DNA of 32,814 nucleotides from assembly GCA_016844605.1 (NCBI GenBank), contig JAENJD010000007.1, positions 761 through 33,574 of the forward strand, in the 5' to 3' direction. The stretch's first letter is position 1. Each line of letters starts with the position of its first letter. The stretch is from Steroidobacteraceae bacterium. GTDB taxonomy: Bacteria > Pseudomonadota > Gammaproteobacteria > Steroidobacterales > Steroidobacteraceae. Positions 3,154 through 28,557 of the stretch are shown in pieces. The notes below the pieces were generated by a model that saw only the letters and a list, made by a program, of their open reading frames with translations, had not been told where the DNA came from and made no database searches. The position numbers were made by a program, and so were the translations under genes.

Positions 3154-4538
3154 TGAGCCGCAGGCGCTGGCCGGTCAACACTCAGCAGGTAGTGCAGGAG
3201 ATTGTCGATCAAGTGCACATTGCCGGTTAATAGATCGTGCGACTCACAGAAAAAGATGGGGTGATCGAACTCTGCGTTTTCGTATTCATTGCGCTGGGTC
3301 GTGACATCCGCCTCCTGCCGGCCAAGCAGGGATGATTTCGTGACCTTGCCGTCGCCAGGATCGTACATCAGTTTTTCGTAATCAATCCCGGGCACGGGAT
3401 GCTGGATCTGCTCGGGTCGCAGCCGCGCCACCGAATCACGATCCACCACTTCAAGAACCAGCCGCGCGGGCGTCGGAACGCAATCGCTGCCGAACAGGAG
3501 TGGTTCAATGAGTTCCACGTCCCCGGCCGGCGCGCTGAGCGACCACACAAACCGCTGCGCGCGCTCGAGACGCTTCTTGAAGTAGCGCTCGAAAACATTC
3601 TGGGCCGGCCAGACGCCAGGCTGGGCCGCCATCTTGCGCTGCACATTGTGTCCGAACACGGACCACCCGAAATTCCGCCAGGTCCCGACATCGAACAAAT
3701 CGAGTTTCAGAGGCACGCCATGTGTGTCCGCAATCCAGTTCACATGCGGATGCGGGAAGAACTGGTACATGGCCGGCATCGTCGCGACGCCCTCGGTCGG
3801 AAGCCGCGACAGCGCGACGCGGTAGCCATTCAGGAAGTAATGGATTGCGCTCGCCGTGCCCTGATTCGGCGTGCCGAGCAGCACGACGCGGCGCAGCTTG
3901 TGCGCGCCGGCGCCGGTGATCTGGAAGTAATTTCCGTCCAGCACATCATTGACGCCATAACGCCCGTAGTAGCCCACGATCAAACCACCCATGCTGTGGG
4001 CGATGATGTCGACGCGCAGCTCCGGATCTGCGTAATCGCGGCGAATCTGCTCGATCAGTTCATCGAGCTTGCGCGCCGACGCGACCATGTCCTGGCGCCA
4101 GTCATAGGTGAAGGTGTACATCAGCGCATCGCCACGGGTGGCCCGCTGCCCGGGCCTGGCTTGCCGGTAGCCACCGACTTCCTGCAGGGCGTCAAGGATC
4201 CGGCCGTAGAAATTCCGTCCGACTGCGCTGTCAAAAATGCCGCCAGGAATCAGCCCGTCGTCCAGTGGCTCGAGTGTGTCGGGATCGATTTGAAGCGCGA
4301 GTTCCAGATAGCCGCTGGTGAGGAGTTTCCGGGTGCTTCCGGGCCAGGCCTCTACGCCGGTTTCGCGATCGACCAGACGCGAGCCGAGCAACCCCGGGAT
4401 GATGATCACCGGCACCTGTTGGCGGTCGGCGGCGCGCTCCCGGGAAAGGCGTACGAGGTCATGCGCCGGGTAGGTCGCGCAGCCGCCCAGGGCCAGCGCG
4501 AACAGCAGGATCGCAGCAGTTACAGTTTGCGCACGCAT
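3150..4538 (-). CDS. LCAT-like alpha/beta-hydrolase lipoprotein (lipase/acyltransferase family)
   Basis: I chose the internal ATG at 4538 because it yields a clean lipoprotein signal peptide (MRAQTVTAAILLFALALGGC, lipobox Cys20); the upstream ATG at 4580 would add 14 charged and aromatic residues before it. The 462-residue product has an oxyanion-region motif VIIIPGLLGSRL (about 44-55), the nucleophile elbow AHSMGG (Ser182), GDGKV (Asp396) and ESHDLL (His434). Together these form the Ser-Asp-His triad of lecithin:cholesterol acyltransferase-like hydrolases. It is predicted to act on phospholipids or other acyl lipids in the envelope. It is the last gene of the tetR-tolC-MFP-RND operon, 43 nt after the pump gene, suggesting a link between efflux and membrane lipid repair or modification. 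Confidence 0.8.
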   Translation of the reverse strand: MRAQTVTAAILLFALALGGCATYPAHDLVRLSRERAADRQQVPVIIIPGLLGSRLVDRETGVEAWPGSTRKLLTSGYLELALQIDPDTLEPLDDGLIPGGIFDSAVGRNFYGRILDALQEVGGYRQARPGQRATRGDALMYTFTYDWRQDMVASARKLDELIEQIRRDYADPELRVDIIAHSMGGLIVGYYGRYGVNDVLDGNYFQITGAGAHKLRRVVLLGTPNQGTASAIHYFLNGYRVALSRLPTEGVATMPAMYQFFPHPHVNWIADTHGVPLKLDLFDVGTWRNFGWSVFGHNVQRKMAAQPGVWPAQNVFERYFKKRLERAQRFVWSLSAPAGDVELIEPLLFGSDCVPTPARLVLEVVDRDSVARLRPEQIQHPVPGIDYEKLMYDPGDGKVTKSSLLGRQEADVTTQRNEYENAEFDHPIFFCESHDLLTGNVHLIDNLLHYLLSVDRPAPAAH

Positions 4539-23568: not shown

Positions 23569-24435
23569 ATGCACGCCGATGTCCATCCGTTCTTACATGC
23601 GCCGACCTCGACCTGGAGCTATGTCGTCAGCGACCGCGATTCGCGTGCCGCAGCGGTCATCGACCCGGTGCTGGATTTCGACATCCATTCGGGACTCTGC
23701 TGGACAGGGGCGGCGGATGAAATCGTCGCGCATGTGCGGCGCGAGCGGCTCACCGTCGAATGGATTCTCGAGACCCATGCCCACGCGGATCACCTGAGCG
23801 CGGCGCCGCATATCAAGGCGAGCGTAGGCGGGCGCATGGCGATCGGCGAAGGAATCTGCCAGGTGCAGCGCACATTTCGCGAGTTGTTGAACCTCGGCTC
23901 CGCATTTCCGGTGGACGGCCGCCAGTTCGACCGGCTGTTCGCGGATGGCGAGGAATTCCGCATCGGGTCACTTATGCTTCGGGCGATCGCGACGCCGGGC
24001 CACACGAGCGACAGCCTGAGCTACCTGATCGGCGATGCCGTGTTCGTCGGCGATTCGATCTTCATGCCGGACGGCGGCACGGCGCGCTGCGACTTTCCGG
24101 GTGGCGACGCGACCGTGCTGCACGCGTCGATCCGCCGCCTTTACGAGTTGCCACCCGAGACCCGGGTCTTCGTCTGCCACGATTATTCGCCGGGCGGGCG
24201 GGAACCTCGTTGCGAGACGACGATCGCCGCCGAGCGCGCGGGCAACATTCACCTGCGCGATGGCGTGACCGAAGCGGAATTCGTCGCAATGCGGACGAAG
24301 CGCGACGCCGGGCTCACCGTGCCGAAGCTCCTGTACCCGTCCGTGCAGACCAATATCCGCGCCGGCCAGCTGCCGGAGCCGGAGGCAAATGGCCGCCGGT
24401 ACATGAAATTGCCCCTGACCTGCCCCGCGGCTTGA
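23569..24435 (+). CDS. MBL-fold metallo-hydrolase, persulfide dioxygenase (ETHE1)-like
   Basis: A 288-residue metallo-beta-lactamase-fold protein with the full metal-binding set: THAHADH (His70, His72, Asp74, His75), His145 in TPGHTSDS, Asp162 in GDSIF and His204 in VCHDY. The GTARCDFPGGD segment and PxxQTNIRAGQLPEPE near the end resemble the ETHE1/Blh subgroup that oxidises glutathione persulfide with one iron ion. A sulphur role fits the nearby CysB-type regulator, but the substrate is inferred. The last codons (LTCPAA) and stop lie in sequence resembling the 16-bp tandem repeat that follows, so the repeat may have formed by copying the end of this gene. Confidence 0.87.
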   Translation: MHADVHPFLHAPTSTWSYVVSDRDSRAAAVIDPVLDFDIHSGLCWTGAADEIVAHVRRERLTVEWILETHAHADHLSAAPHIKASVGGRMAIGEGICQVQRTFRELLNLGSAFPVDGRQFDRLFADGEEFRIGSLMLRAIATPGHTSDSLSYLIGDAVFVGDSIFMPDGGTARCDFPGGDATVLHASIRRLYELPPETRVFVCHDYSPGGREPRCETTIAAERAGNIHLRDGVTEAEFVAMRTKRDAGLTVPKLLYPSVQTNIRAGQLPEPEANGRRYMKLPLTCPAA

Positions 24436-24446
24436 CGCACCCCCCG

Positions 24447-24518
24447 GCTTGACCTGCCTCGCGCTTGACCTGCCTCGCGCTTGACCTGCCTCGCGCTTGA
24501 CCTGCCTCGCGCTTGACC
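24447..24518. repeat. tandem repeat, 4.5 copies of a 16-bp unit
   Basis: The unit GCTTGACCTGCCTCGC is repeated exactly four times (24447-24462, 24463-24478, 24479-24494, 24495-24510), followed by a half copy (24511-24518). A degenerate copy (TGACCTGCCCCGCGGCT) overlaps the end of the preceding gene. Each unit contains TTGACC, close to a -35 box; the last one is suitably placed for the trp promoter. Confidence 0.93.
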
Positions 24519-26657: not shown

Positions 26658-27688
26658 ATCGTCCGGGCAAGGAAGCACTCGAAGCGCTGCTCGAGCGGAA
26701 GGATCTGGCCGAGGACGCCGCGTACAAACTGATGGTCGCGCTGACCGATCCTGAGATGGCGCCCGCGATGGCAGGCGCATTGCTCGCTGCGCTTCGGATC
26801 AAGGGCGTGACCGCAGATGAGGTGCGCGGCTTTGCGCGCGCAATGCGCTCGCTGGCTCGGCGGCCGCAGATCACGGCGGGGGCGCTGATCGCAGACGTCG
26901 TTGGAACGGGCGGTGATGGTTCCCACAGCCTCAATCTTTCGACCGGTGCGGCGCTCCTGGCCTCCGCCGCTGGTGTGCGCATCGTCAAGCATGGCAATCG
27001 CTCGGTTTCTTCGCGATCCGGCAGCGCCGACGTGCTGGAAGCGCTGGGCCTGCCGCTGCCGCTCGACGAGGCCGCGGCCGGGTTGTGCCTCGAGCGGACC
27101 GGATTCACTTTCTTGTTTGCCCCGCATTATCACCCGGCGATGAAGGCGATCGCGCCGGTGCGCGTGGCGCTCGGCGTACGCACGATTTTCAACCTGCTGG
27201 GGCCGCTCGCGAATCCCGCACAGGCGCCATTTGCAGTGATCGGAGCCTGGAGTCTCGAGGTCGCGAAGCTCATGGCGGACACACTGGCAGGCATGGAGAT
27301 CCGGCGCATGTTCGTCGTTCACAGTGACGGCGGTTGGGACGAACCGACACCTGCTTCGCCATTCACGATCTTCGATGTGCGGCCGGGATCCGTGAAGCAG
27401 GCGAAGAGGAGCGCCGCCGATTTTGGGTTGCCGGCCTGTGTCGAAGTGGATCTCAAGGGCAGTGACGCAGCACACAATGCAGGGCGCCTGTCCGCTGTTC
27501 TCCGTGGCGAGGAGCGCGGCGCTCACCGCGACGCGCTCGTCATGGGCGCGGCACTGGTCGCCGAGGTCACGGGTCTCGCGCCGGATGCCAACGAAGGTGT
27601 GAGACTCGCATCCGCCGCGATCGATGATGGCCGCGCCGCGAAACTGCTCGATAGCATCATCGCCTTCGGCAGGGAACGCGCCGCATGA
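26654..27688 (+). CDS. trpD: anthranilate phosphoribosyltransferase
   Basis: A 344-residue enzyme joining anthranilate to phosphoribosyl pyrophosphate. The PRPP-binding signatures are intact: [15 protein letters not shown] (83-97) and [22 protein letters not shown] (111-132). [36 protein letters not shown], the anthranilate-site region, is also present. It is a stand-alone TrpD, not fused to TrpG. It overlaps trpG and trpC by 4 nt (ATGA) on either side. Confidence 0.97.
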
Positions 27689-28557
27689 GTGGCTTCCTTG
27701 ATCACATGGCTGCAGCAAGCCGATTGCGCCTCGAAGAAGCGCGCACACGCGAGCCACTCACGGCGCTGCGCACGCGAGTGCTTGCAACGCCTCAACCACC
27801 ACCGTTGATTCTGCGGAATCGATTCAATCTCATCGCCGAGTTCAAGCGCCGCTCGCCGGCACTCGGCCGCCTTGGCGACGCCGACCTCGAAAGTCGCGTA
27901 ACCGCCTACGCTGAAGGCGGCGCTGCGACGGTCTCCGTCGTGACTGAACCCACGCAGTTCCATGGCAACCTCGACCATCTCGCCGCTGCTGCGGAGCTCC
28001 TGACGCCCCTTGGCATTCCAGTGATGCGCAAGGACTTTCTAGTTGACCCGTACCAACTTCACGAAGCACGCGCAGCCGGCGCCGGCGGTGTGTTGCTGAT
28101 TATCCGGATGTTGTCCGGAGCTTCCCTTGCTGAAATGCTCGACTGCGCTCGTGAGCTGACGCTTTTCGTATTGCTCGAGTGCTTCGATGGCGAGGACATT
28201 GCGCGCGCCACGGCCGAGGTGGCCGTGGGTGTCCCCGAGCGAAGCATAAAGTTCCCGCGGAGCGAGGGGACACCCCGGCCGGATCCCGGCCGTGGCGCGC
28301 CCGCAGTCCTTTTCGGCGTTAACTGCCGCGACCTGCAAACTCTTGCAGTCACACCTGGCCGATTCCACGAAATGGCACCGTTGCTGCCGGGTGGTGTCGT
28401 TCATGTAGCTGAAAGCGGGATCACTACGCCAGATGACTGCGCCGACGTTGCGCGCGATGGCTACGAGTTGGCATTGGTCGGCAGCGCGCTGATGACGGCG
28501 TCCGATCCCGCCGCCGTGATTCGGACAATGCTCGCCGCTGGCAGGGCCGCCGCATGA
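27685..28557 (+). CDS. trpC: indole-3-glycerol phosphate synthase with in-frame insertion
   Basis: A 290-residue TIM-barrel enzyme closing the indole ring. The active-site set is complete: Glu52 and Lys54 (AEFKRRSPAL), Lys116 (MRKDFLVDPYQ), Glu165 (LLECFDG), Asn213 (GVNCRDL), and Glu243-Ser244 (AESGI). Spacings Lys116-Glu165 (49) and Asn213-Glu243 (30) equal those recalled for the Sulfolobus enzyme (Lys110-Glu159, Asn180-Glu210). Glu165-Asn213 is 48 instead of 21. The roughly 27 extra residues (about 181-207, rich in Pro, Arg and Gly) are encoded by a palindromic DNA element without breaking the frame. They precede a barrel strand, on the face opposite the active site, so the enzyme is probably functional. 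trpC is not fused to trpF. Confidence 0.95.
   Translation: MSGFLDHMAAASRLRLEEARTREPLTALRTRVLATPQPPPLILRNRFNLIAEFKRRSPALGRLGDADLESRVTAYAEGGAATVSVVTEPTQFHGNLDHLAAAAELLTPLGIPVMRKDFLVDPYQLHEARAAGAGGVLLIIRMLSGASLAEMLDCARELTLFVLLECFDGEDIARATAEVAVGVPERSIKFPRSEGTPRPDPGRGAPAVLFGVNCRDLQTLAVTPGRFHEMAPLLPGGVVHVAESGITTPDDCADVARDGYELALVGSALMTASDPAAVIRTMLAAGRAAA
28221..28292. repeat. palindromic element inserted in frame within trpC
   Basis: Two adjoining foldbacks. The larger pairs 28221-28236 with 28266-28280 (GGGTGTCCCC against GGGGACACCC, extended by GGCCG/CGGCC with one bulged T), with a GAGCGA direct repeat just inside each arm. The smaller pairs CGGCCGG (28276-28282) with CCGGCCG (28286-28292). The span coincides with the extra 27 codons of trpC, so it looks like a REP/BIME-like or Rickettsia-type palindromic element carried inside a gene. 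Confidence 0.75.

Follow-up and report, generated by a model that had tools for sequence, protein, structure and literature searches.

The trp locus and its trpC gene

The window, i.e., the whole stretch of 32,814 nucleotides analysed here (Steroidobacteraceae bacterium, assembly GCA_016844605.1, contig JAENJD010000007.1, positions 761 to 33,574), carries a run of genes which we take to be trpE, trpG, trpD, trpC, trpF, trpB and trpA, the names other than trpC being based on recognition of the ORFs. A 16-bp tandem repeat of six copies (24416-24518) is located just upstream of the trpE-like ORF (24688). The trpC ORF is intact and carries a palindromic element in frame (Table 1). Its product matches Pfam IGPS with an E-value of 9.6e-50, and the structural model matches IGPS chains of the PDB with Z up to 37.6. 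Relatives of this TrpC in named records are at most 56% identical. In an alignment of 32 sequences, Lys116, Glu165 and Asn213 are invariant columns.

Table 1. Features of trpC and of the palindromic element within it (window coordinates).
Feature	Position	Strand	Evidence
trpC, indole-3-glycerol phosphate synthase, 290 aa, carries the element	27685..28557	+	ORF, Pfam IGPS, PDB IGPS chains
Whole palindromic element, nested hairpin, 98 bases	28203..28300	+	fold z -8.6; covariance model match 28201-28303, 88.6 bits
5' outer arm of 12 bp, sequence varying by locus	28205..28216	+	in the profile of 68 copies, pairing declines beyond position 12
Box A, AGGTGGCC, with bulged A	28217..28224	+	AGGTG unchanged in all 20 copies of the alignment
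Apical motif, ATAAAGTTCC-GCGG type	28246..28260	+	alignment of copies; in many, not all, subfamilies
Box C, CGGATCC	28280..28286	+	CGGATCCCG unchanged in all 20 copies of the alignment
3' outer arm, complement of 28205-28216	28287..28298	+	fold; arm-pairing test

The spacings of the key residues are 49 (Lys116-Glu165), 48 (Glu165-Asn213) and 30 (Asn213-Glu243), in agreement with an earlier sequence-only reading of this DNA. In the Sulfolobus enzyme, the spacing equivalent to Glu165-Asn213 is 21 residues, and the earlier reading thus counted 27 extra codons. Compared with relatives, the excess is smaller. Among 40 TrpCs parsed from the taxonomic family and order of the host, four contain the element (spacings 48, 48, 59 and 129), while the 36 others, which show that long linkers are not the rule among relatives, range from 20 to 37; the low end of this range is too low, because the search pattern anchored 8 of the 36 on a later Glu. 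TrpC of G003 and G006, for which no match was obtained, and trpC of G002, which is split across contigs exactly at the insert site, are not part of this set.

The element comprises about 33 codons, part of helix alpha5 included. In the AlphaFold2 model (mean pLDDT 91.7), the insert lies between helix 169-182 and strand 208-213, and residues 189-202 within it are the sole stretch of TrpC with pLDDT below 50. The proposed in-frame position is thus borne out, in a loop that is modelled as disordered. Since the 5' arm encodes part of helix 169-182, the element replaced native sequence besides lengthening it. It follows from the TIM-barrel topology that the loop would be on the face opposite the active site. 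The length of the alpha5-beta6 loop varies among the TrpCs of relatives, which fits a tolerance of the insert, and the protein carrying it is presumably an active enzyme.

The element is a single nested hairpin

Two adjoining foldbacks starting at 28221, one of them CGGCCGG/CCGGCCG, and a GAGCGA direct repeat had been described from the letters alone. All are present and the element is indeed palindromic, but the fold yields one nested hairpin. It begins at 28203, so a start at 28221 misses the 5' outer arm; the foldbacks described correspond to the inner stem and to a local alternative at the 3' foot. Folded as RNA, 28203-28300 reaches -78.4 kcal/mol (z -8.6), and folded as DNA z -7.9; in both cases none of 200 shuffled sequences was as stable. 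Pairing of the outer stem extends 2 bp beyond the 12-bp arm in this copy. The covariance model described below detects a single copy in the whole window, the one in trpC. No Rfam match at gathering score was obtained for the window and 10 loci.

A dispersed family in two genera

By BLAST, the trpC element recurs at three places in the host genome, and a covariance model built from 20 copies finds 10 copies there, the window copy included. The element is therefore not unique, in good agreement with its earlier interpretation as a dispersed palindromic element. The model matches in G000 to G006 and G029 amount to 10, 4, 22, 22, 10, 3, 3 and 56, respectively, some of them being one palindrome counted on both strands. 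When 200 genomes were drawn from the taxonomic family, 9 proved to harbour the repeat (2 of 25 genera, under stricter filters), seven from the host genus and two from a second genus. All genomes are drafts with 74-98% completeness. In G029, contigs C9, C45, C64, C75, C87 and C105 start within or at a unit; the assembly thus breaks at the repeat, and copy numbers are probably underestimates.

For the following tests, 119 of 135 model matches were kept; 14 lay at the same place on the opposite strand, one was partial and one was cut at a contig end. From a second set, 21 of 22 matches were kept. Together with the window copy this gives 141 copies, 68 of which have both boxes in register and were used for the arm and frame tests.

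Architecture and covariation

Units are about 80-125 bases long. In the 68 strict copies, AGGTG and GGATC form the two facing sides of an internal loop that contains a bulged A. Further model matches carry other boxes or longer perfect arms, and hence the family is broader than this strict form. Watson-Crick pairing of the outer stem in the 68 copies is 0.85-1.00 over 12 positions and drops to 0.32 at position 13; the model used to find copies contains the outer stem and is thus biased towards paired arms, but it does not set the edge at 12.

The sequence of the outer stem differs by locus, with 8 distinct stems in 8 copies of G000 and 14 in 41 copies of G029. Nevertheless, arms pair with their own partner at 12.28 of 14 positions versus 8.25 with partners from other loci, a difference reached in none of 2000 permutations. 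In the alignment of 20 copies, 95.5% of the cells are paired compared with 79.5% after shuffling, and the covariation score is 0.419 versus 0.140; none of 500 shuffles reaches either value. Base changes on both sides occur in 15 of 26 pairs. Four of five covariation measures beat all 500 shuffles; the fifth, further pair types, does not go beyond them (113 of 500).

Because the arms vary from locus to locus and stop abruptly after 12 bp, we considered that the stems may be copied from the target site. The arms are, however, rich in GC and loosely alike in pattern, some of them recur, as in G029, and no clean empty site was found with which they could be compared. With respect to the criteria for MITEs, the terminal arms are 12 bp long but locus-specific, and no close empty site was available for judging a target-site duplication.

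Copies are located mainly behind genes, with trpC as the exception

Judged with a codon model, 40 of the 105 clusters of copies lie between convergent genes, 31 between genes on the same strand (23, and another 8 within one frame that is interrupted by stops) and only 2 between divergent genes. Two are open through, namely trpC of G001 and G005, while 15 are at contig ends and 15 have one side uncalled, trpC of G029 among the latter. Almost all clusters of two units (33 of 35) are in -/+ orientation, i.e., head to head, where the notation -/+ is used as the 'head' end of a unit is not fixed. Ten orthologous junctions (28 of the 105 clusters) carry units in at least two species, and five of these, including trpC, span both genera; many sites may therefore be old.

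We scanned with Pfam the 94 frames that run without a stop across a cluster and at least 40 aa beyond it in both directions (62 of the 105 clusters). Three have a Pfam domain on both sides, all of them trpC, and five further frames have a match on one side only. Within these 94 frames, the scan revealed no gene other than trpC that has a copy inside it, but it is blind to genes without a Pfam domain. Hence trpC is the exception, and the family otherwise behaves like the REP/BIME repeats found at gene ends. A role as intrinsic terminator was rejected: TTTT occurs near the hairpin foot in 1 and 0 of 135, so there are no T runs.

Several loci deserve a separate description. A methylmalonyl-CoA-mutase-like gene of G029 (L178 3523-5082, unit 4061-4183), one of the five frames with a one-sided Pfam match, has lost the usual C-terminus together with the stop codon and reads on into the unit, remaining open for more than 200 codons; its G000 relative ends normally, shortly past the same residues. 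At one orthologous junction of G000 and G001 (L103 305-405 and L109 4059-4159), the unit has opposite orientation and about 60 bp of flank are inverted along with it, bounded by short inverted repeats of GCTGACCGCCA type, as if the segment had been flipped; in their arms, the two loci are distinguished by a single compensated pair. At two other orthologous junctions (L104 4160-4440 versus L111, and L106 versus L117), the loci are one whole unit of a head-to-head pair apart, which suggests that single units are gained or lost.

trpC copies across species

The trpC genes of G000, G005 and G001 have one sense unit in common; in G001, part of the 3' arm is present a second time, which adds 11 codons. 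Between these three species the element DNA is identical at 92/98, 92/98 and 90/98 positions (92-94%), compared with 527/742, 554/742 and 536/742 (about 70-75%) in the flanking trpC sequence. Fourfold sites show the same contrast: 3/21, 3/22 and 2/20 differ in the element versus 71/122, 62/126 and 64/124 in the flanks (Fisher p 0.0002-0.002). At the DNA level, the trpC hairpin has thus changed less between species than the surrounding gene, and it seems to be under constraint as a nucleic acid. Such conservation, the least expected of the findings, could mean that the hairpin has a role in the mRNA of the operon, or that other copies convert it.

The cores of these three trpC units show a mutual identity of 0.91-0.93 versus 0.87-0.91 to the best paralog of their own genome, the best of many paralogs being a generous measure. 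This is expected if one insertion was inherited by the three species. A different situation is found in the second genus. The trpC gene of G029 is open over 412 codons and contains two units in opposite orientation, placed differently in the loop than the unit of the host genus; their cores have an identity of 0.99 to the best G029 paralog and of 0.63-0.75 to the trpC units of the host genus. The insert is absent from trpC of G109, which belongs to the genus of G029, and of G004 from the host genus. Most likely, the inserts in the two genera go back to two events in the same permissive loop. Cores specific to one genome are evident in G029 and G109, with an identity to the best paralog of 0.94-0.99, and less pronounced elsewhere, e.g., in G000 (0.69-0.99) and G003 (0.73-0.92).

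Comparison with known palindromic repeats

Intragenic REPs are already known. Di Nocera 2013 (PMC3733652) describes REPs inside ORFs of several species; many of the genes concerned serve replication and repair, and the inserts comprise 20-30 residues, in some cases up to 82. The GTAG and CGTC families treated there are biased towards convergent and same-strand locations. The family described here resembles REP/BIME repeats, as portrayed there, in its palindromic nature, its convergent or same-strand and rarely divergent location, the predominance of inverted (HH) dimers and the existence of some intragenic copies. It differs in the size of the unit, which is 20-40 bp for REPs and severalfold larger here, in its two conserved internal boxes and locus-variable 12-bp stem, and in that neither a GTAG/CGTC tag nor a neighbouring transposase was found. 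Within 16 nt outside the arms of the 68 copies, the left and right counts of GTAG are 2/1 (shuffled expectation 1.7/2.2), of CGTC 4/4 (5.5/5.2), of CTAC 5/1 (3.4/3.0) and of GACG 4/0 (4.7/5.9).

REPs that travel with a RAYT transposase flank its gene. By covariance model, no unit was found near RAYT-like genes at 9 loci of these incomplete genomes, and a pattern scan gave only scattered one-mismatch motifs. A search for Y1_Tnp in 12 incomplete draft genomes, a set without G109, produced matches in five and none in the unit-bearing genomes G001, G005, G006 and G029. One Y1_Tnp/RAYT-like gene of G000 (L119, contig C119, about 3450-4330) is located between inverted repeats of GGGGACGCTACCCTTTT type and occupies the junction where G029 (L178) has a palindromic unit.

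The likeness to Rickettsia palindromic elements (RPEs), which had been proposed for the trpC insert, turns out to be loose. As with the RPEs described in PMC10969869, the trpC copy is a palindromic repeat in frame inside an enzyme gene. A large share of RPE copies, however, is located in frame inside ORFs and retains an open frame and peptide, while here the clusters are nearly all intergenic and follow genes, internal copies are exceptional (3 of the 94 open frames), the lineage is another one, and the frame in which trpC reads the unit is free of stops in only 38 of 68 copies, fewer than any other of the six frames. The family thus works like REP repeats, yet differs from them in tag, size and RAYT association, and from RPEs in the frame, so we do not class it as a REP.

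Two further systems share single aspects. Coding palindromes of nematomorph mitochondria combine a stringent hairpin and a working protein in one sequence, like the trpC copy, but their arms encode conserved protein regions according to PMC6649704, whereas the trpC hairpin gives rise to an additional loop. In enterobacteria, small repeats (RU; PMC2759123) of 103-168 bp are dispersed and found inside some genes; the likeness is one of description only. Our literature search returned no report of palindromic repeats in Woeseiaceae and, among the titles listed, no relevant report of palindromic repeats inserted in trpC.

Origin and role of the trpC hairpin

We consider it likely that the trpC feature is one copy of a lineage-specific, dispersed, REP/BIME-like family of palindromic repeats. 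Its unit is a hairpin of the described length that has a 12-bp outer stem and the bulged-A internal loop; many subfamilies conserve the apical loop as well. As a rule, units reside just 3' of genes, probably in transcribed space, singly or as head-to-head pairs, and their position together with the covariation suggests that they probably act there as hairpins of RNA or of cruciform DNA. Near-identical cores at separate loci in G029 and G109, with lower values in several other genomes, point to a spread of genome-specific subfamilies by a non-autonomous route. Carriage by phage, plasmid or virus was checked and gave no match. In an ancestor of the three host-genus species, one unit would have entered trpC at the alpha5-beta6 loop without disturbing the frame, to be translated as a disordered peptide that leaves the key residues of the enzyme intact; the inverted pair in the same loop of the second genus would most likely be a separate event. 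A clean empty site between close strains was not found among the genomes compared, so that the insertion itself is unseen.

Somewhat doubtful, in our judgement, is a single insertion into trpC before the genera split, followed by losses and by homogenisation of the cores through gene conversion (concerted evolution). Such a history would account for the five junctions with units in both genera, for cores at shared junctions that are often nearer to paralogs of their own genome than to orthologs, and for one trpC arm of G029 that is identical to the window arm at 10 of 12 positions, although this arm also occurs in 10 G029 copies. It is at odds with the trpC units of G029 and G000, which are unlike each other in number, order and orientation and in how far they lie from helix and strand, and with the absence of the insert in G109 and G004. 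These two genomes and the 34 other parsed TrpCs without the insert likewise weaken the idea that the trpC copy is a selected functional RNA element of the trp operon, serving, e.g., pausing, processing or the balance of trpC and downstream expression. We regard this as unlikely, even though conservation of nucleotides and fourfold sites above the flanks in three species, the very stable hairpin, and the finding of internal copies in trpC alone, and there in two genera, are in its favour; no Rfam family matches, and conversion by other copies could conserve the core just as well.

Mobilisation of a true GTAG/CGTC REP by a RAYT transposase is very improbable. The position after genes, the inverted pairs and the RAYT-like genes in G000, G002, G003, G004 and G030 would suit it, but units are too long at about 80-125 bases, lie beside none of the nine RAYT-like genes and show tags near shuffled expectation. 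That ordinary variation of a TrpC loop, which is indeed variable in length among relatives, coincided with a chance palindrome deserves practically no credence given the fold z of -8.6, and is refuted by the copies elsewhere in the genome.

Returning to the dispersed REP/BIME-like family as the preferred reading, the earlier notion of a selfish repeat that makes a tolerated peptide may hold, but nucleotide conservation in trpC and covarying stems suggest that the hairpin itself is maintained. Only tentatively do we go further and propose a new class of hairpin, whose 12-bp stem would be rewritten at each locus yet always re-paired, whose genome-specific forms would time and again repopulate identical gene ends and the one trpC loop in two genera, and which in trpC would simultaneously be under selection for its signal as nucleic acid and be tolerated at the peptide level.

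The finding adds the case of a metabolic enzyme to the palindromic repeats living inside working genes, and trpC brings with it conservation at the DNA level across species as well as a second occurrence in another genus. The sharply bounded, locus-specific and complementary 12-bp stem provides a handle on how such hairpins get copied or repaired, and the trpC copy allows a direct test of whether the hairpin, the peptide or neither matters.
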